39,172 nucleotides of DNA from an uncultured Chloroflexota bacterium (GTDB taxonomy: Bacteria > Chloroflexota > Anaerolineae > Anaerolineales > Villigracilaceae), in NCBI GenBank assembly GCA_903914955.1, contig CAIWRB010000403.1, positions 1 to 39,172 on the forward strand, read 5' to 3'. The notes below the pieces were generated by a model. The model was not told the DNA's origin. It saw only the letters and a program-made list of their open reading frames with translations, and made no database searches. The number at the start of each line of letters is the position of its first letter. Position 1 is the first letter of the stretch. Both the position numbers and the translations under genes were made by a program. Of the stretch, positions 6,912 through 35,575 are shown piece by piece.

Positions 6912-7613
6912 ATGACAGGTACTTTCATTAACGTCGCCGCCATTCTGATCGGCGGGACGATTGGCTTAATTTTCGGTGCGCGTATTCCTGAACGATTTAA
7001 GAATACCGTCATTGCGGGCATGGGACTTTTCACCGCCGCGATGGGTTTGCAAATGTTCTTCAAGAGCAATAACCAATTGATCGTATTAGGCGCGATCATC
7101 ATTGGCGCAATGTTAGGCGAATGGATCGGGATCGAGGATTGGCTGCAATCTCTGGGAGAGACTCTTGAAAAACGATTCTCCCGTGACACTGAAACTGGCG
7201 CCGGTTCGAGATTTGTCCGTGGCTTTATGGTTGCCTCTTTGCTATATTGCATCGGCCCCATGGCGATCTTAGGTTCCATTCAAGACGGACTAACCGGCGA
7301 TTACAAATTGCTGGCGGTGAAATCTACACTGGATGGATTTGCATCCATCGCATTCGCATCCACATTAGGAGTGGGCGTGATGTTCTCGTCACTGATCATC
7401 CTTGTTTATCAGGGAGGGATCAGCCTTTTGGCAGGGCAACTCAACGCGATCGTCACCGACCCGATGATGGCAGAAATGACCGCAACAGGCGGTGTGATCC
7501 TGATGGGAGTTGCCTTCAACAATTTGCTGGAGATCAAGAAGATTCGTGTGGGGAATTTCCTGCCGGCGCTGGCGGTAGCTCCACTGATCGTGTGGGTATT
7601 GAGTCTTTTCTAA
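6912..7613 (+). CDS. DUF554 family integral membrane protein (YdfK-like)
   Basis: A 233-residue protein with about seven hydrophobic helices. The family is recognised by the N terminus FINVAAILIGGTIGLIFG, the SLLYCIGPMAILGSIQDGL block in the centre and GGVILMGVAFNNLLEIKKIRVGNFLPAL near the C terminus. DUF554 proteins are putative transporters of unknown substrate. I chose the ATG at 6912; the upstream in-frame stretch to 6837 overlaps the adenosyltransferase and is not hydrophobic. A weak AGGA lies 11 bases before the ATG. A terminator follows at 7655-7701. Confidence 0.88.
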   Translation: MTGTFINVAAILIGGTIGLIFGARIPERFKNTVIAGMGLFTAAMGLQMFFKSNNQLIVLGAIIIGAMLGEWIGIEDWLQSLGETLEKRFSRDTETGAGSRFVRGFMVASLLYCIGPMAILGSIQDGLTGDYKLLAVKSTLDGFASIAFASTLGVGVMFSSLIILVYQGGISLLAGQLNAIVTDPMMAEMTATGGVILMGVAFNNLLEIKKIRVGNFLPALAVAPLIVWVLSLF

Positions 7614-7654: not shown

Positions 7655-7703
7655 AACTTCTCTAAACTAAATTAGTATCTATTTAGATTAGAGAAGTTTT
7701 TAA
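7655..7703 (+). terminator. intrinsic terminator after the DUF554 gene
   Basis: An 11-bp stem pairs AACTTCTCTAA (7655-7665) with TTAGAGAAGTT (7688-7698), followed by more T residues. The stem is AT-rich and the loop is 22 nt. Confidence 0.75.
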
Positions 7704-7808: not shown

Positions 7809-7817
7809 TGATATAAT
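7809..7817 (+). promoter_or_regulatory. extended -10 promoter of the giant Thr/Pro-rich gene
   Basis: TGATATAAT is an extended -10 element (TGn plus TATAAT at 7812-7817). It ends 9 bases before the ATG at 7827, so the 5' leader would be only a few bases. The rest of the gap 7704-7808 holds AT-rich sequence with no ORF. Confidence 0.65.
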
Positions 7818-7826
7818 CGTGTACTA

Positions 7827-10800
7827 ATGTCATCGAATTTGCTGCTTCTTGGAGGAATTGCAATAGCCTTAGGGGTTATTTTCAGTTACTTTATTGCCAT
7901 CCGCGCACTGCAAGAATCACGCCGCTCCCCAAATTACATCACACGCCAGCAAAACACAATCCGTGCAAAAAAAGCCTTTTCAGTTTTGGGTGTCTTTGTT
8001 TCCATCGGGGTTCTGCTTATTATATTCATACAGCTTCCACAATTTAATCCGCCATCCAGCCCTTTATTGAATACACAAACGCCAGTCCCAATACGTAAGG
8101 TTACCGAAGCCACTGCGCCATTGGACACACCTGATAACAACCCGACTAACTTCATCATCACAGCCACACCGGCGACTACCCCCACCCCCACTCAAACCCC
8201 ATTGTCATCTGTTCCATTAGCTGTTGAAGCCTTATTCAAAAGCAAAATCACACCACAGCCAGATGCTGAAATAAAGGATCTAAAATTCTCTACGAGGATC
8301 CAAGGTGATCTTCCTGCAGTCATCGCAACAAGTTTTAGTAATCCTATTTCAACCATGTATGTCTTTTTTACATACGATGGACTTGACTTGGGCGTGCAAT
8401 GGACGGCACTTTGGTATCGTGATGGCATCTTGCAATACTACGAAACCAAACCATGGGACAAAATAAACAAGGGTTTTGACAATTCAGTATGGAAACAGTC
8501 TGCAGAAAAATGGCAACCGGGTCTTTATGAAGTTCAAATATTTATCGGCAATAAGTGGAAAACCTCGGGATCTTTTATTTTGACAGGTACCCCAGCTACG
8601 GCCAAACCTGCGCCGACATCCACACCAAGCAGGACGCCTTCCAAAGCGCCGACAGCGACTCTTACATCCACGGCCACAGCGACCCGGACTCCGCTCCCAA
8701 CGAAGACCCTGCCTGCTTCAAACACTCCAAGCAGCACCCCAACTTCAACATCCGCTGCCACAGCAACCTCTTTACGTCCACCTACGATCACGCCGTCAAA
8801 AACCTTTACTATTACGCCATCTGCCATGGTTACGGGCACTTCGTCAAGCACTCCTACAAATAGACCGACCAACACAGGCACAGCAACGATCACAGCTACG
8901 CCGCTTACTTTTAAAGTGAACATTGTCTTTACTGATAAACGCCTTCTTACAAGTGGTGCTACCTCATTCGAAAGGGCTACCTCAAGAGACATTCTCTCTT
9001 CGATTAACCCGGTTGCCGCTGTAATAGATGAATACTTCAAAGGCCCGAATGCCACAGAACAGAATGCGGGCCTAGTCGCGTATTGGAATGGATTTGTCGG
9101 ATACAGCCGCATAGACCTGGCAGGAAACGGTATCCTGCACATTTATCTAAAAGGACAATGTCAATCCAATGGAACTGCGTACAATATTGCTCGGCCCTTG
9201 ACGGCTACGGTCAAGCAATTTCCGTATGTGAAGTATGTAAAGATATACGATGAATACGGCGATACCATTGCCCCCCTCGGAAAAGTCGACTCTGCTCCAA
9301 TTTGTCTCGACGCATCATTTACGCCAAGCCCCACCATCACGCTTATACCCACGATCACAGCAACCTCTACGCCATCGTTAACGCCTACGATCACGGTGAC
9401 AGCATCGAAGACTTCCACTATTACATCCACCGCCACAATGACAGTGACGCCTTCACGTACGCCCACCGTCAGGCCCAGCAAAACGCCAACCTTGATACCA
9501 TCTGCTACGATCACGATGACACCATCATTTACGCCATCGAACACATCAACCTTCAAGCCAACAAATACCGCAACGGCGACTTTTTCGCCGACTCCAACCA
9601 AGACAGCTACATTCACGCCATCATCCACGCCAACAAAAACTTTCACACCCTTACCAACTTCCACGTCGCTTGTGATCAAGGTCAATATTGTTTTTCCAGA
9701 TAAACAACCGACTGGGAAAGGCTCATCGCCTGTTGAAAAAGTGGTAACCCGCCAGATACTTTCTTCAACAAACCCTGTAAATGCTGTGATAGACGAATAT
9801 TTCAGGGGGCCAACTGCCGCAGAGCAGGATGCAGGGCTAACTGCTGTTTGGAATGGTTTTATCGGATACAACCGCATTCTTTTATCAAAAGGCATTCTAC
9901 ATATCTACTTGAAAGGACAATGCCAATCAAATGGCAGCACTTACAGTATTACACAACCTTTGAGTGCGACTGTTAAACAATTTTCATATGTGGAATATGT
10001 GAAACTATATGATGAATATGGAAATACGCGCAACTCAGTTGACCGGGCGGACTCTGCTCCAATTTGTTTGGATCCATCCTTCACACCTAGTCCAACTATC
10101 ACCTTACCGCCAACCATTACGCCAACGTTTACACCGTCACTTACGCCGACAAGGACACTCACACCTACTTTCACGCCCAGCAAGACACCAACCTTCACGC
10201 TTACAAATACCGCAACTTTTACTCCGAGTAAAACGCCAACTCTTACACCTTCTCGCACACCGTTACCGACTGCGACATTAACTTCTACCCGCACTCCGCG
10301 ACCCACGAAAACATTCACGCCCTCATTCACGCCGCGCCCGACCAAAACCAATACGCCGACCAGTACAGCTACACTCAGGCCGACCAACACTGCCACAGCT
10401 ACAATCACGTTCACTCCAAGCTATACCCCAACCATCACACCGTCATTTACTCCGACTTTTACACCGAGCATCACTTTTACTGCCACATCCACGCGAACGC
10501 CATTGCCGACCGAGACATTAACTTCGACTCGTACGCCGCGCCCAACACATACAATCACACCTTCGTATACACCGCGCCCAACCAAGACCAATACTCCAAC
10601 CAACACTTTCACCTTGACCCCCTCCGTGACTTCTACAGCCACTTCCACTCGCACACCGTTGCCGACTGCGACATTAACTTCTACCCGCACTCCGCGACCA
10701 ACGAAAACATTCACACCTATCTTCACACCGCGCCCGACCAAGACCAATACGCCGACCAATACAGCTACACTCAGGCCGACCAACACAGCCACAGCTACAA

Positions 10801-12533
10801 TCACGTTCACTCCAAGCTATACCCCAACCATCACACCGTCATTTACTCCGACTTTTACGCCGAGCGTTACTTTTACAGTCACATCCACGCGAACGCCGTT
10901 GCCGACCGCGACAATAACTTCAACTCGTACTCCACGACCAACCTCTACATTCACACCTTCGTTTACACCGCGCCCAACTAAGACCAATACTCCAACCAAC
11001 ACTTTCACCTTGACCCCCTCCGTGACTTCTACAGCCACTTCCACACGAACGCCGTTGCCGACTGCGACATTAACCACTACCCGCACTCCGCGACCAACGA
11101 AAACATTCACACCTACCTTCACACCGCGCCCCACCAAGACCAATACTCTGGCCAACACAGCCACCTTATGGCCGACTGTCACATTTACATCCACTTCCAC
11201 GCGTAAACCATTACCTACTGCAACGAATATTCCAAGCCGTACACCACGCCCAACGGCTACCATCACCGCTTCGTATACGCCGCGCCCAAGTGCTACAAAA
11301 ACCCCATCACGCACACCGAGTAAAACGCCCACTTTCACGCCTTCCTTCACGCAAACACTTACTCAAACTGCAACATTCACGTTTACACCTCTTCCAATAG
11401 CCACGTTTGACCCCAGATGTAATCGCGCTGGATTCGTTTCAGATATAACCGTACCCGATGGAACCACTGTCAACGCAACTGAAAAATTCACTAAGACTTG
11501 GCGATTCAAGAACATCGGCACATGCACATGGACAACTTCCTACAAATTCGTCTTTACCGGCGGAGACAAAATGGATACAGTGGACTCCATAACACTTCCC
11601 AATAATGTCGCTCCCTCTGAAACGATTGATATATCCATAGATCTGACCGCCCCCGAAGCGCCCGGCATATATCGAGGCAACTGGTCATTTGAAGACAATA
11701 CTGGAAAGCAATTTAGACTTGGTTCATCAGGAACTGGTCAGATATGGGTTCAAGTGAAAGTGATATTAGCCCCAACCAATACTCCAACACCTTCGCCAGC
11801 GCCCACTCAAACGGGACTACCAACCACAGTAACTCCATTCGCCCCGCGCCAAATGGAAACTCTCGCGTATGACTTCATCTCAGAAATTTGTTCGGCGCAA
11901 TGGTTAAGTAACAATATCCAGCAACCATGTCCAGGGTCAGGTAGTGAAGCGAAAAAATTCATTAATCTGGTCACAATACCTACTCTGGAAGATGGCACCG
12001 CACTCAACAATCCGGCGATCATGATCGTTCCAGATAATTTAAATGGATCCATAAAAGGCATCTATCCTGAATTTTTGGTACAGAATGGTGATCACTTCCG
12101 AGCCACCGCAAGCTGTGAAGCAAATTCTACAACCTGCTCAGCCATCTTCCGAGTCAGCTATCAGGATGCTTCAAACGCCGTAGTGGACCTTTGGGCTGTT
12201 GGAGAATTCTTCGATCAGAGATATACACAGATCGATATTGATATCAGCGCCCTAACGGGTCAGAGCATCAAATTTATATTAGATGTAACACCATTGAACA
12301 CCGATCCAGGCAATCATGTTTTCTGGGCGTTGCCTGGTATTTATCGTGAGCTTTTGCCAACAGCCACGTTCACAATTGCGCCAACCACCACCGCTACCAT
12401 AACCCCCATTCCGACAACCACTCTGCTGTCAACTCCGACTGCCTTACCGCAAGCAGAGCCAGAAACTCAGTCAGTAATTGAGAAAATCCAGAAATTCTTT
12501 AACGACATTTATAAATTAATTTTTGGTGGATAA
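7827..12533 (+). CDS. giant membrane-anchored Thr/Pro-rich protein with two GerMN-like domains and an NBR1-type domain
   Basis: A 1568-residue protein. Two hydrophobic helices (about residues 3-28 and 50-70) anchor the N terminus. Next comes an Ig-like module (about 130-253), then a Thr/Pro/Ser linker. Two copies of a GerMN-like domain (about 362-495 and 615-750) each contain INPV.AVIDEY..GP, GILHIYLKGQCQSNG, VKYVK/VEYVK..DEYG and APICLD. They are separated by another Thr/Pro stretch and followed by a 440-residue TPTxT-rich stalk. At about 1195-1313 lies an NBR1-type four-tryptophan domain (KTWRFKNIGTCTW, GNWSFED, GQIWVQV). A C-terminal beta-rich domain (about 1342-1510) and an amphipathic helix end the protein. 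The stalk is probably O-glycosylated and spans the envelope; the function is unknown. The start is supported by an extended -10 element just upstream. Confidence 0.85.
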   Translation: MSSNLLLLGGIAIALGVIFSYFIAIRALQESRRSPNYITRQQNTIRAKKAFSVLGVFVSIGVLLIIFIQLPQFNPPSSPLLNTQTPVPIRKVTEATAPLDTPDNNPTNFIITATPATTPTPTQTPLSSVPLAVEALFKSKITPQPDAEIKDLKFSTRIQGDLPAVIATSFSNPISTMYVFFTYDGLDLGVQWTALWYRDGILQYYETKPWDKINKGFDNSVWKQSAEKWQPGLYEVQIFIGNKWKTSGSFILTGTPATAKPAPTSTPSRTPSKAPTATLTSTATATRTPLPTKTLPASNTPSSTPTSTSAATATSLRPPTITPSKTFTITPSAMVTGTSSSTPTNRPTNTGTATITATPLTFKVNIVFTDKRLLTSGATSFERATSRDILSSINPVAAVIDEYFKGPNATEQNAGLVAYWNGFVGYSRIDLAGNGILHIYLKGQCQSNGTAYNIARPLTATVKQFPYVKYVKIYDEYGDTIAPLGKVDSAPICLDASFTPSPTITLIPTITATSTPSLTPTITVTASKTSTITSTATMTVTPSRTPTVRPSKTPTLIPSATITMTPSFTPSNTSTFKPTNTATATFSPTPTKTATFTPSSTPTKTFTPLPTSTSLVIKVNIVFPDKQPTGKGSSPVEKVVTRQILSSTNPVNAVIDEYFRGPTAAEQDAGLTAVWNGFIGYNRILLSKGILHIYLKGQCQSNGSTYSITQPLSATVKQFSYVEYVKLYDEYGNTRNSVDRADSAPICLDPSFTPSPTITLPPTITPTFTPSLTPTRTLTPTFTPSKTPTFTLTNTATFTPSKTPTLTPSRTPLPTATLTSTRTPRPTKTFTPSFTPRPTKTNTPTSTATLRPTNTATATITFTPSYTPTITPSFTPTFTPSITFTATSTRTPLPTETLTSTRTPRPTHTITPSYTPRPTKTNTPTNTFTLTPSVTSTATSTRTPLPTATLTSTRTPRPTKTFTPIFTPRPTKTNTPTNTATLRPTNTATATITFTPSYTPTITPSFTPTFTPSVTFTVTSTRTPLPTATITSTRTPRPTSTFTPSFTPRPTKTNTPTNTFTLTPSVTSTATSTRTPLPTATLTTTRTPRPTKTFTPTFTPRPTKTNTLANTATLWPTVTFTSTSTRKPLPTATNIPSRTPRPTATITASYTPRPSATKTPSRTPSKTPTFTPSFTQTLTQTATFTFTPLPIATFDPRCNRAGFVSDITVPDGTTVNATEKFTKTWRFKNIGTCTWTTSYKFVFTGGDKMDTVDSITLPNNVAPSETIDISIDLTAPEAPGIYRGNWSFEDNTGKQFRLGSSGTGQIWVQVKVILAPTNTPTPSPAPTQTGLPTTVTPFAPRQMETLAYDFISEICSAQWLSNNIQQPCPGSGSEAKKFINLVTIPTLEDGTALNNPAIMIVPDNLNGSIKGIYPEFLVQNGDHFRATASCEANSTTCSAIFRVSYQDASNAVVDLWAVGEFFDQRYTQIDIDISALTGQSIKFILDVTPLNTDPGNHVFWALPGIYRELLPTATFTIAPTTTATITPIPTTTLLSTPTALPQAEPETQSVIEKIQKFFNDIYKLIFGG
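10254..11160 (+). repeat. 396-bp higher-order tandem repeat coding for the Thr/Pro stalk
   Basis: A block beginning CGCACACCGTTACCGACTGC at 10254 recurs at 10650 and, slightly diverged, at 11046. Each interval is exactly 396 bases (132 codons), about 2.3 copies in all. Each unit splits into two related halves that both begin TSTRTPLPT. Copies differ mostly at scattered bases, implying recent in-frame duplication. Confidence 0.85.
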
Positions 12534-12598: not shown

Positions 12599-12630
12599 AA
12601 AACAGCCCCAAAAAATTGGAGGCTGTTTTT
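12599..12630. terminator. bidirectional terminator between the giant gene and tRNA-Lys
   Basis: AAAACAGCC (12599-12607) pairs with GGCTGTTTT (12621-12629), followed by T. It serves the giant gene on the plus strand, and on the minus strand it follows directly after the tRNA 3' end. Confidence 0.8.
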
Positions 12631-12704
12631 GGTGACCCCGGGCGGGCTCGAACCGTCAACAAATTGCTTAAGAGGCAACTGCTCTGCCATTGAGCTACGG
12701 GGCC
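12630..12704 (-). tRNA. tRNA-Lys (anticodon CUU)
   Basis: Read on the minus strand it folds as a complete cloverleaf: acceptor GGCCCCG with CGGGGTC, D stem GCTC/GAGC, anticodon stem GTTGC/GCAAT around loop CTCTTAA (anticodon CTT), and T loop TTCGAGC. The discriminator is A and CCA is encoded (bases 12632-12630). The T stem has one A-C mismatch (second pair). CUU-reading tRNA-Lys decodes AAG. Confidence 0.93.
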
Positions 12705-12740
12705 GTTTTTAGAATTTGCACGGCTTTATTTGCGGACGAT

Positions 12741-12768
12741 ATTATACACCAAAGAAAATTAGTGTCAA
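12741..12768 (-). promoter_or_regulatory. consensus sigma-70 promoter of tRNA-Lys
   Basis: The minus strand shows a perfect TTGACA (12763-12768), a 16-base spacer and a perfect TATAAT (12741-12746), 36 bases upstream of the tRNA 5' end. Confidence 0.88.
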
Positions 12769-12826
12769 CGAAAAAAACGGGCACCTTGGAAAACCTGCCA
12801 TAGGTACAAATGACCGCTATCAGTGA

Positions 12827-12835
12827 TGTTATACT
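12827..12835 (+). promoter_or_regulatory. extended -10 promoter of the acyltransferase gene
   Basis: TGTTATACT (TGn then TATACT at 12830-12835) lies 24 bases upstream of the ATG at 12860. It is divergent from the tRNA promoter; both share the 12741-12835 region. Confidence 0.55.
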
Positions 12836-12859
12836 TTGGCAAAAAATGGCAGAAAATTT

Positions 12860-13882
12860 ATGAGCAATCGGACTGACTGGGTTGACTACGGGAAGGGGAT
12901 CGGGATAATTCTGGTGGTATACGGGCATCTATTAAGCAGTGCATATCACGCTGGTATAAAAATCCCGGAACATTTCTTTTTGCTCTCAGACAGCATCGTC
13001 TATGGATTCCATATGCCATTTTTCTTTTTACTGGCGGGCCTATTTGTTGAGGGCAGTCTGCAGAAGCGCGGCATTAAAAGCTATATTCTAGACAAGTTCT
13101 CACGCATTGCTTATCCGTATATAATCTGGTCCATTCTGCAAGTAAGTGTTGAAGTACTCTTTTCCAACCAAACCCAGTTGGGCGCAACCTTTACCGATCT
13201 CGCAGCAATCTTTTACCAACCCTGGGGACAGTTCTGGTTTCTCTATGCGATTTTCATTATGCATATTTTGTTTGCTATCACGAGCAGGTTTGGAAAATAT
13301 TCCACGGGGATAATATTCATCCTTTCAGTAGTTTTATATTTTTATCCGCTTAACGTTGGAGTCGCTGGTATCTTCGGCTTTTCAACTTATTTTATCTTTT
13401 TTGTAATGGGCATTATTCTGAGAAAAACATTCATTAATGCAGAGAGATACAACCTGTCTCTTTGGTTTATTCTTTTGCTTATTTTTATCTTAATTGGTTC
13501 TGGGTATATTATTTTTGAATTTCAGATCAAGCCTACACGCCTAAACGGCAGTACCTATCCTTTTTATTTCCTTTATTTAGCCATTCTCGGCATTACGGCC
13601 TGCACAAGTCTGTCACAATATCTCGCCAAAAGAAATATAGCCCCCTACCTACAAAGGCTGGGAGTGTACTCTCTACAGATATATCTCGTCCATATGCTGG
13701 CAGGAGTAGGTATAAGAATGGTTTTGTTACATGTATTTGGGATACAAAACTGGGTCATTCACATAACAATGGGCGTCGCTTTCGCACTGGCAGCGCCGAT
13801 TATTCTTCAAAAAATATCTGACCGGTTTAAGTTTCCATATTTATTTGAATTCAAAAGAATTTATGATTCGGCTTCAGGTTAA
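12860..13882 (+). CDS. acyltransferase family 3 membrane protein
   Basis: A 340-residue polytopic membrane protein with about ten hydrophobic helices. The N terminus DWVDYGKGIGIILVVYGHLL carries the conserved histidine of the acyltransferase-3 family (OafA/WecH/fucose O-acetylase type), and FHMPFFFLLAGLF follows at about residue 51. Such enzymes transfer acetyl or succinyl groups to surface sugars or lipids; the acceptor is unknown. I use the ATG at 12860; a TTG eight codons upstream lies immediately after the -10 box and cannot be transcribed with a leader. It is monocistronic and ends at a bidirectional terminator. Confidence 0.85.
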   Translation: MSNRTDWVDYGKGIGIILVVYGHLLSSAYHAGIKIPEHFFLLSDSIVYGFHMPFFFLLAGLFVEGSLQKRGIKSYILDKFSRIAYPYIIWSILQVSVEVLFSNQTQLGATFTDLAAIFYQPWGQFWFLYAIFIMHILFAITSRFGKYSTGIIFILSVVLYFYPLNVGVAGIFGFSTYFIFFVMGIILRKTFINAERYNLSLWFILLLIFILIGSGYIIFEFQIKPTRLNGSTYPFYFLYLAILGITACTSLSQYLAKRNIAPYLQRLGVYSLQIYLVHMLAGVGIRMVLLHVFGIQNWVIHITMGVAFALAAPIILQKISDRFKFPYLFEFKRIYDSASG

Positions 13883-13908
13883 AGTTTGGACGCTCTATGA
13901 TAATAAAA

Positions 13909-32569: not shown

Positions 32570-35500
32570 CTAGAAACCTTCGAGTTTACTGAGGTCTATG
32601 ACTCCGTGTGACAATGCGGAAATCCTTTGAAGCAAGCCCAGCCGATTTTCCTTCACAGCTTTATCTTCAGCCATCACCAATATCTTCTCAAAAAATATAG
32701 TAATGGATGGAATCATCGAGGAAATATTTTTCAGGAGCGAATCGACATCACCTTCGACAGTGGGCGGCAGACGAAGGAACGCTTCATATAATCCTTTTTC
32801 TGCTTCTTCAACGAGCAGCTCTTCGCTCACTTCGAATTTGGCCTTTTGGTCGCGCGTAATGCGGACACAGCGCGCAAAACCATCCAGCGTGGTTGACCAG
32901 TCCTCGCGTCCCACCCAAGCAGACAGTTGCTTCACCGCTCGCACAGTTCCCGCAGGGTTATTTGATTGCGCCGCAAGAACGGCTTCCACAATATCATATT
33001 TATAACCAGATTCATTTAACACAACCTTCAAGCGCCCAGTGATGAAATCAAGGATCTGTTTTTGCACATCGTCACTGACTGCAATAGGCTGAGTCTTGGT
33101 CGATTTCTTCACAGCTTCGGTTATGTCAAAATCCACATTATGTTCGATCAACGGTTGGACAACACCGATCGCGGCGCGGCGCAAACCAAATGGATCTTTC
33201 GCGCCCGTGGGAGCGAGTCCGGCGGCAAAGAGACCGACAAGTGAATCGATACGATCTGACAACGCAAGCGCAAGCCCGAACTTTGTCTTCGGAACGGTTT
33301 GGTATTGTTCGGAAATCGCCTGCGCCGCTTGTACATTTTCGCCAGAACGCAGCGCATATTCGCCGCCGATTATTCCTTGCAGAGAAGTCATCTCTGTGAC
33401 CATCTGAGTCGCAAGGTCCGCTTTGGCAAGATAGATACTGCGCGCAAGATATTTGATGTCCATCACATCTTTGAAGCCGAGCATTGCGCCCACTTCCGCG
33501 CCCAAGATCAACATGCGGTTGGATTTGTCGAGCATGGAGCCAAGCTTGGTGTGGAAGGTAAGCGAAGAAAGTTTGGGACGATACTCTTCGATCTTGAATT
33601 TGACATCTTCACGGACGAAGAAGTTGGCGTCGGCAAAGCGCGCGCCAAGGACGTGTTCGTTCCCTTCGCGGACGGTGTCGATGTGAATGTCGTCACCGTT
33701 GCGAATGGCGATGAAATGTGCCATCAATTTCCCATTTTTCTGGACAGGGAAATAGCGCTGATGTTTCTTCATCACCGAGATAAGCACATCGCGCGGTAAT
33801 TGTAAAAATTCTTCGTTGAAGCTGCCCATGACAGCGGTGGGCATTTCGATGAGGTTTGTGACTTCGTTGAGCAAGCCTTCTTCGATGATGGCTTGTCCAC
33901 CAAGCAAGGCTGCGGCTTGATTGACCTGTTCCACAATGGAAGCTTTGCGTTCTTCTTTATCAAGGAGGATACCTGCTTCACGTATCATATCAAAATACGC
34001 TTCGCGATCAGCGGATGGAATGGTGATGTCGGGGGAACCGTAGGGACGAAGTCCGCGGGAGACATTGCCGCTCACAACACCAGCATATTCGAACGGGATG
34101 ATCATGTCGCCGAGCAACGCCACATACCAGCGGATGGGACGAGAGAAGGCAACGCCTGAGTCGTTCCAGCGCATGGACTTTTCAAACTTGATGCTTTCGA
34201 CTAATTTGGGCAACGCATCCACGAGAACTTCGGGAGTAGGGCGTCCCTTTTGCTTGACGACAGCCGCCACGTATTTTCCACCGTCGATCTCGCGGGCTTC
34301 GAGTGTAGCAGGGTCGAGATTATTTTTCTTTGCAAAGCCAAGCGCGGCCTGAGTAGGTTTGCCGTCTTTGTCGAAGGCTTTATCCGCGGGCGGACCTTTG
34401 ACGAGGTCTTCGCGGTCTGGCTGATTCGGAGAGAGAGAGTCAATAGAAACAACCATCCGTCTCGGGGTTGTAAAGATGCGGACATCTCCATGTTCAAGTC
34501 TAAGTTCGTTAAGCAGCGTTGGAATCCGCTGGCTGAGTTGTTCGTAAGCGGAGTCCACATCGTTGGCAGGTAATTCTTCGACTCCGATTTCAAGGATGAA
34601 TGATGAAGGATGAGGGATGAATTTTAAAGGCGCGGATGATTTTGCTTCATCCTTCACACCTGCACTTGCGTGCGGGGCAAGTGTCCTTTTGCCTTCATCC
34701 TTCAGTAATGGATACTCCAACTTCATGCGTTGATCGCCATAAGCTACCGCCACGCCCTTAGCCAATTCGCGGATGCGTCGGAAGAAGGCTTGGCGCTCGG
34801 CGACGGAAATGGCGCCGCGGGCATCGAGTATGTTGAACGCATGATTGCATTTGAGAATGTAATCATGCGCGGGGACGAGCAGACCCTGTGCGAGGCAGGC
34901 TTCGGCTTCAGCAGAGAAGAGGTCGAACATTTGGCGGGCACGCTCGACATCCGCAATCTCATAATAATATTTGGAGTGCTCGAACTCCTCCTGACGGCGA
35001 ATCTCGCCATAGGTGACGCCTGCGCCGTATTCTTCGTTCCAGATGGCTTTGGCGTTGTTGAGCGCAATGAGGATGCGTTCGAGCCCGTAGGTGATCTCGA
35101 CCGAGACGGGGTCGAGCGCCACGCCGCCCATCTGCTGGAAGTAGGTGAACTGCGTGATCTCCTGCCCGTCGAGCCAAACCTCCCAACCGAGCCCCCACGC
35201 GGAGATGGCGGGCTGTTCCCAGTTATCCTCCACGAAGCGGATGTCGTGCTGGCGCGGATCGATGCCGAGGGCCTTGAGCGACTCGAGGTAGAGTTCCTGC
35301 GGGTTGCCAGGGTCGGGCTTGAGGATGACCTGATACTGGGTGTGCAGTTGGAAGCGGTTGGGGTTCTCGCCGTAACGCCCGTCATCTGGGCGGACAGACG
35401 GCTCGACGTATGCCACGTTCCACGGCTCGGGTCCGAGCACGCGCAGGAAGGTGGCAGGATTCATCGTCCCTGCGCCCACCTGGGTGTAGTAGGGCTGTGT

Positions 35501-35575
35501 GATCAGGCATCTGTGCGATGCCCAGAAATCTTGTAGTTTGAGGATGATTTCTTGGAAGGAGGAGGGTTTCGTCAT
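32570..35575 (-). CDS. glyQS: glycyl-tRNA synthetase, alpha and beta chains fused
   Basis: A 1001-residue single chain. Residues 1 to about 293 are a complete alpha subunit ([52 protein letters not shown]). From about residue 325 a beta subunit follows ([20 protein letters not shown] to the C-terminal anticodon-binding region with LLLQRIS-type end). Bacteria usually have separate glyQ and glyS genes, giving an alpha2-beta2 enzyme; fused forms are known in scattered lineages. The linker of about 32 residues ([14 protein letters not shown] then KFIPHPSSF) is coded by heptamer-repeat DNA like that in intergenic gaps here. It charges tRNA-Gly. It is a single gene ahead of dnaG-rpoD with its own terminator. 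Confidence 0.95.
34592..34703. repeat. heptamer repeats inside glyQS at the alpha-beta junction
   Basis: Four perfect-length heptamers AAGGATG, AATGATG, AAGGATG, AGGGATG (34592-34619) are followed by a region with TTCATCCTTC in the opposite sense near 34645 and 34692, plus a CACTTG/CAAGTG stem between. The DNA codes the linker of the fused enzyme. Confidence 0.7.

Follow-up and report, generated by a model that had tools for sequence, protein, structure and literature searches.

The window (the whole 39,172-nucleotide stretch of DNA analysed) carries a gene for a giant protein of 1568 residues, in which two hydrophobic helices, a conserved N-terminal module, two GerMN domains, a basic Thr/Pro stalk, an NBR1 domain, a predicted jelly-roll domain and an amphipathic helix follow one another (Table 1). 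We give about even chances to the proposal that this giant is a membrane-anchored tether working like a fibrillar adhesin. The GerMN domains, the variable basic spacer and the pair of beta domains at the far end fit a tether or a fibrillar adhesin. The parts are known; their combination, the kept amphipathic tail and the unnamed C-terminal domain were not met in the literature and database searches made. Among the literature matches listed, in which subscription journals were mostly not covered, no paper described the combination.

Apart from pili and Tad systems, little is known of what uncultured Anaerolineales carry on their surface; the available part of a study on sludge Chloroflexota discusses adhesion structures such as Tad pili, and the giant is absent from that part (PMC10746286). 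The giant family joins GerMN, FW/NBR1 and the unnamed jelly roll, all three with unsettled roles in bacteria, on one chain and offers concrete constructs for probing what GerMN and bacterial FW domains bind.

Gene and domain layout

The ORF is intact, closed by a stop codon and free of internal stops. The host genome (G000) comprises 4.40 Mb in 470 contigs, with a completeness of 98.7% and a contamination of 4.5%. Comparison of five domains with those of the nearest giant (L030) gave pN values of 0.11-0.18 and pS values of 0.60-0.82, the latter near saturation. Judged from these substitution values, the domains are evolving under constraint. A chance ORF or artefact was rejected on the basis of the intact frame, the low pN and the homologues in separate assemblies, including the single-contig genome G025.

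A Pfam scan of the whole giant (E<=1) returned N_BRCA1_IG as the sole family; it contained no catalytic domain and no Germane match for either GerMN copy. NCBIfam gave no family matching the giant. The sequence lacks an LPxTG motif and a lipobox, so that the two-helix hairpin is the only anchor seen. The number of cysteines is even in each folded domain, which agrees with an oxidising outside.

The sequence-only reading had drawn two N-terminal helices, two GerMN-like domains, a Thr/Pro stalk of about 440 residues, a four-tryptophan NBR1-type domain, a C-terminal beta domain and an amphipathic C-terminal helix, and had judged the architecture unlike any described protein. All these elements were recovered, with profile-based boundaries within a few residues of those first proposed. 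Profile support was obtained for NBR1 and for GerMN, in the latter case from relatives and, just under the cut-off, from copy 1, and no homologue of known function, close ones included, was found. The strong K/R excess of the stalk had not been part of that reading.

Table 1. Positions of the giant, its parts and its neighbours in the window
Feature (residues)	Coordinates	Strand	Basis
Giant stalk protein ORF	7827..12533	+	ORF reading; domain conservation
Two hydrophobic helices (1-75) flanking a basic 26-residue loop	7827..8051	+	Hydrophobicity/charge; homologous to order-wide stand-alone module
Conserved module (129-254), earlier labelled Ig-like	8211..8588	+	Common to stand-alone 258-450 aa membrane proteins
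T/P/S linker 1	8589..8915	+	Composition
GerMN domain 1 (364-495), Cys445/Cys493	8916..9311	+	PF10646, AF2 model, fold match to GerM 6gz8
T/P/S linker 2	9312..9680	+	Composition
GerMN domain 2 (619-749), Cys699/Cys747	9681..10073	+	65% identical to domain 1
Basic Thr/Pro stalk, 448 residues (750-1197)	10074..11417	+	Composition, repeat analysis
NBR1/FW domain (1198-1312)	11418..11762	+	Pfam PF16158 1.2e-23; PDB ILRUN and NBR1 matches
C-terminal jelly-roll domain (1347-1507), CBM51/MAM-like predicted fold	11865..12347	+	AF2 model, structure comparison
Amphipathic C-terminal helix ending FGG (about 1548-1568)	12468..12530	+	Hydrophobic moment
DUF554 gene, one border of the giant's site	6912..7613	+	Pfam 4e-80; synteny
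tRNA-Lys (CTT), other border of the giant's site	12630..12704	-	tRNA detection; synteny

Putative N-terminal anchor and GerMN domains

The hydrophobic stretches span residues 1-29 and 47-75, and the intervening loop, which is predicted to be cytoplasmic, contains 7 K/R and 1 D/E. The helices and the basic loop argue for an anchored, outward-facing protein. In the proposed topology, suggested by helices, charge and domain types, a two-helix hairpin would span the cytoplasmic membrane, leaving its basic loop inside the cell and about 1500 residues outside.

The giant's own copy of the following module, which had been labelled Ig-like, matched no Pfam family, so that the label is provisional; among the 26 rows scanned by Pfam, of 34 collected, only scattered weak matches appeared, the strongest being to LysE (0.0021, a single row). 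Together, helices, T/P linker and this module were matched in 56 of the 61 genomes searched. This N-terminal part also forms stand-alone proteins across the order, of which 26 complete ORFs of 258-450 aa were collected; G000 itself has one (L129). At L133 and L150, the gene immediately upstream of the stand-alone one codes for a GerMN protein that has the N-terminal helices, an arrangement to be expected if the giant had arisen as a tandem duplicate. The stand-alone genes at L129:4200-5021, L133:10195-11160 and L150:6574-7389 lie near formate-tetrahydrofolate ligase, and their neighbours include an amino-acid kinase (L129, L133) and a 4HBT thioesterase (L129, L150).

The GerMN domains were evaluated by profile and by fold. 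Copy 1 matched Pfam PF10646 (Germane) with an E value of 1.7e-4 and 22.6 bits, 0.4 bit short of the cut-off of 23, while copy 2 alone gave no match. Germane was matched at E<=1 by 11 of the 12 GerMN rows of the genus (best 2.6e-6); these rows are the domains from the first search for relatives and include the giant's two. Five small proteins of this subfamily were scanned, all of which lay above the cut-off (best 5e-8), and copy 1 was the sole Germane match in G000. With the AF2 model of copy 1 (pLDDT 92, pTM 0.86), Foldseek placed GerM structures at ranks 1 to 5 (E 2.8e-3 to 8.2e-3), and VIA-align gave a Z of 11.7 against GerM 6gz8 (rmsd 2.6, 117 residues aligned), followed by a Clostridium lipoprotein (Z 8.0) and then by values of 4.9 or less. 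By these profile and model comparisons, together with the mutual identity of the copies, the two are divergent GerMN domains missed by the default Pfam cut-off. The Cys pair is invariant in the 12 aligned rows. The 12-row profile did not find GerM among the PDB sequences (best 2atz, E 1.3), so the link to GerM is drawn from Pfam and from the fold.

The giant shares with GerM of Bacillus subtilis the GerMN fold, present twice as it is in the tandem structure 6gzb. It differs by an identity of only 14-15% over the aligned part, by the 123 T/P residues that set its copies apart, by the invariant Cys pair, the long stalk and the further domains, and by the absence of a lipobox. GerM is, moreover, a sporulation protein, whereas Spo0A was not found in the giant's genome: the Spo0A_C search gave no match in G000 and, among the control genomes, detected B. 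subtilis only. A spore function was rejected on this ground. The association of GerMN with spore germination and lipoproteins, which had been thought surprising here, lost its force because Germane also occurs outside spore formers: 5 of 14 control genomes matched, including Thermus, Deinobacterium, Thermotoga and Corynebacterium. A scan of viral contigs with the GerMN alignment found no relative, and a phage origin was rejected.

Outside the genus, the GerMN subfamily was found in two further settings. In nine proteins of sister genera, GerMN stands behind a long N-terminal part; the four scanned by Pfam all carry M23 and Golvesin_C, and of the other five, four have the GPHLH motif, which the scanned L136 and L138 also show, and L139 lacks it. 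These proteins (L135, L136, L137, L138, L139, L148, L149, L151 and L152; 4 of 9 Pfam-scanned) read as M23, Golvesin_C, a T/P linker and one to three GerMN domains. We met no description of such a GerMN-bearing family of M23 wall peptidases. They resemble the giant in having the same GerMN subfamily on T/P linkers, but carry a peptidase where the giant has hairpin, stalk, NBR1 and C-terminal domain. The second setting consists of eight small proteins elsewhere in the class, seven of them with a lipobox-like Cys near the start. In a tree of 48 GerMN domains, the 17 domains of the nine genus giants formed one starred group (99/95); the domains of the sister-genus giants did not join it, and one of them, from L150, lay next to the M23 group. 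Three changes are required to account for the three labels on this tree, whose root is arbitrary, so that an origin of the GerMN lineage in lipoproteins is a suggestion only.

By analogy with GerM and the M23-fused subfamily, the GerMN domains would probably dock on partners in the wall or envelope. The wall-docking reading is weakened by the position of the domains, which lie at residues 364-749 in the G000 giant and reach residue 1157 in L133 and 1531 in L031. The main rival to a tether is wall remodelling, in which the giant would be a scaffold that brings in or controls a wall peptidase of the LytM/M23 type through its GerMN domains and whose stalk places this activity through the wall, adhesion being secondary. 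It owes this rank to the fusion of the same subfamily to Peptidase_M23 and Golvesin_C in sister genera and to the dependence of SpoIIQ, a LytM-domain protein of B. subtilis, on GerM for its place, as given in the available part of PMC6934232. We regard this scaffold as unlikely, because Pfam detected no catalytic domain in the giant and no peptidoglycan hydrolase among the 19 window ORFs scanned, though an Acyl_transf_3 gene lies beyond the tRNA, and because the distal head is adhesive in look. The Acyl_transf_3 family includes surface-polysaccharide acetyltransferases.

Stalk, distal domains and tail

The stalk consists of 38% T, 18% P and 8% S (T+S 47%), without Cys or Gly, and is strongly basic, with 42 K/R against 2 D/E. 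The excess of K/R over D/E (0-5) was seen in the post-GerMN stalk of all ten giants measured, three of which are ended by the contig end. In the seven complete giants, the stretch after the last GerMN domain measures 383-966 aa and contains 65-83% T+P+S. A tandem repeat with a unit of 396 bp (132 aa) and a match of 91% occupies positions 10252-11176, and the stalk units were duplicated more recently (pS 0.15) than the domains diverged. The stalk length in the window may be wrong because of these repeats and of the 470 contigs. This basic, nearly acid-free segment would act as a length-variable spacer and may also bind an anionic wall polymer.

The sequence-only reading had suggested a heavily glycosylated surface structure. 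On this view the giant would be a mucin-like coat protein, whose O-glycosylated T/P stalk would mainly form a coat or brush. The T+S content agrees with this idea, and G000 has seven PMT-family matches, six above the cut-off. These matches are not specific, since PMT was also matched in 8 of the 14 control genomes, including E. coli and B. subtilis, and mucin-like regions do not usually have such a K/R excess. We hold a mucin-like coat to be quite improbable.

The presence of an NBR1 (FW) domain is certain at the level of sequence. Its match to Pfam PF16158 reached 84.1 bits (cut-off 28) over profile positions 1-108 of 108, and PDB sequences of ILRUN (2.1e-14) and NBR1 (1.9e-8) were matched. 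Three of its four tryptophans (W1225, W1235, W1286) stand opposite W in ILRUN; W1307 lies outside the ILRUN alignment. The full-length match, the four Trp and the solved structures liken it to the FW domain of NBR1 and ILRUN. The NBR1 autophagy receptor also carries PB1, ZZ and UBA domains. In the giant, by contrast, the FW domain is set on a bacterial stalk and no other domain of NBR1 was detected by Pfam (E<=1). The domain is familiar chiefly from eukaryotic autophagy receptors, yet its presence here is no reason for surprise: G000 has 16 PF16158 matches, and bacterial FW domains, including those of Chloroflexi, were reported in 2012 in the part of PMC3357945 available, and also appear in that of PMC9233695. 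A recent transfer from eukaryotes was not supported, since the published clustering separates bacterial from eukaryotic FW domains (PMC3357945, available part).

For the C-terminal domain, 65 members were collected and 40 of them scanned, none of which matched a Pfam family (best E 0.045, an unrelated family), and its profile gave a best E of 0.69 against the PDB. Its AF2 model (pLDDT 90.8) is a jelly roll. In the structure comparison by Z score, CBM51 7js4 came first (Z 14.2, 136 residues aligned, rmsd 2.6), with CBM51 entries at ranks 1-3 and 5-11 and MAM domains from Z 12.3; the first Foldseek match was a MAM domain. We predict from the model a jelly roll of CBM51/MAM type, a fold that is no proof of sugar binding. 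The domain was matched in 48 of the 61 genomes searched. In the loci read, it accompanies NBR1 domains; most of the proteins concerned are repeat proteins, 13 of them complete (425-847 aa), and the same search yielded many further ORFs of about 400-470 aa. Repeat proteins that alternate NBR1 with this unnamed jelly roll occur at G000:C250:52835-56031 (L128) and in L040-L065, from many genus genomes.

We propose a distal head made up of NBR1 together with the CBM51-like jelly roll, a head that would probably bind a glycan or protein outside the cell. Against a sugar-binding head, the jelly-roll fold is common to many domains that do not bind sugars, such as MAM and those of Eph receptors. A stalk with an adhesive domain is the general plan of fibrillar adhesins according to the available text of PMC8286594, from whose main text "Chloroflexi" is absent. 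Like the fibrillar adhesins and FA-like proteins described there, the giant would be long and anchored, with a spacer leading to a putative distal binding head; unlike them, it has a T/P spacer instead of folded stalk domains and an N-terminal hairpin as anchor (PMC8286594, available part).

The terminal helix has a hydrophobic moment of 0.77, a value reached in none of 5000 shuffles. Such a tail was found in all six genus giants whose C-end is known (five of them complete, the sixth being the G008 fragment L038, taken as the end of the G008 giant), the fraction of shuffles as high being 0 to 0.0032. Among these giants the tail diverged in sequence and was kept in shape. The tail was also looked for in 35 C-domain ORF entries that lack GerMN and are complete at the 3' end: four have it (L036-L039, cut-off giant ends) and the remaining 31 do not. 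The kept tail would probably serve as a second membrane contact or for self-association.

A further rival is a double-anchored bridge, with the hairpin in one membrane, the tail in the cell's own or a neighbour's membrane, and the stalk linking membranes or looping. The restriction of the strongly amphipathic tail to the genus giants favours it, but a single short helix may equally self-associate and the tail is missing from L132 and L133, both sister-genus giants. We hold such a bridge to be distinctly unlikely. The tether itself is also challenged by missing parts: besides the tail in L132 and L133, NBR1 is absent in L035 and the module labelled Ig-like in L034, L035, L132 and L133. The tether in its fullest form, a lineage-specific, double-ended envelope structure with hairpin, wall-docking GerMN, length-tunable polycationic T/P spacer, glycan-binding NBR1/jelly-roll head and membrane-active tail, receives little credence from us. 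If true, in these Chloroflexota it would fasten the membrane and the wall to the sheath or to an adjacent cell.

Distribution and genomic site

Relatives with the GerMN subfamily were detected in 7 of the 61 genomes searched, more rarely than the N-terminal part or the C-terminal domain. They are present in only 9 of 57 genus genomes (7 of 32 among the better assemblies), so the giant is dispensable; they also occur in sister genera, and 22 of 396 genomes sampled from the class contain the subfamily. All six named records encoding GerMN-domain relatives are MAGs labelled Anaerolineales or Chloroflexi bacterium. The seven complete giants measure 1221-2015 aa and have one or two GerMN domains, and incomplete ones have up to four. 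The G008 giant (L031:5756-10984) has four, of which copies 2-4 were duplicated more recently (pS 0.26-0.36).

Pfam scanning of 19 of the window's ORFs placed cobalamin adenosyltransferase and DUF554 to the left of the giant, and an acyltransferase and respiratory complex I genes to the right. The giant adjoins DUF554 in all five genus giants bearing the module labelled Ig-like (G000, L030-L033), and tRNA-Lys lies 3' of it in the three checked (G000, L030, L032). The stretch after DUF554 was without a giant in all ten other genomes inspected, chosen from the 51 genus genomes with a DUF554 match. At eight of these sites, tRNA-Lys lies 51-305 bp from DUF554; at the other two, the stretch yielded no tRNA. 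Two of the ten genomes, G025 and G031, carry their giants at other loci. When compared with the empty site of G015, the window flanks aligned on the DUF554 side and again from the tRNA onward. Site-specific insertion was rejected: no att-like repeat was present at the site, and the longest string common to tRNA-Lys and the flanks has 6 bases.

The surroundings of tRNA-Lys vary (12630-13900), the window having the acyltransferase gene there; between tRNA-Lys and the Nuo genes lie about 4.3-4.6 kb of other sequence in L194 and L192, and about 50 bp in L191. A promoter scan gave 7 sites against 6.9 in shuffles. Upstream of tRNA-Lys, 12741-12768 (-) is a perfect 12/12 match to a sigma-70 promoter (TTGACA-16-TATAAT). 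Two further elements, seen by eye only and not among the promoter-scan sites, are a TATAAT (7812-7817) that precedes the giant's ATG by nine bases and an AT-rich hairpin-like palindrome after DUF554 (7655-7703). The giant may be expressed as a single-gene, leaderless transcript. The window also contains an ORF of 1001 aa at 32570-35575 (-).
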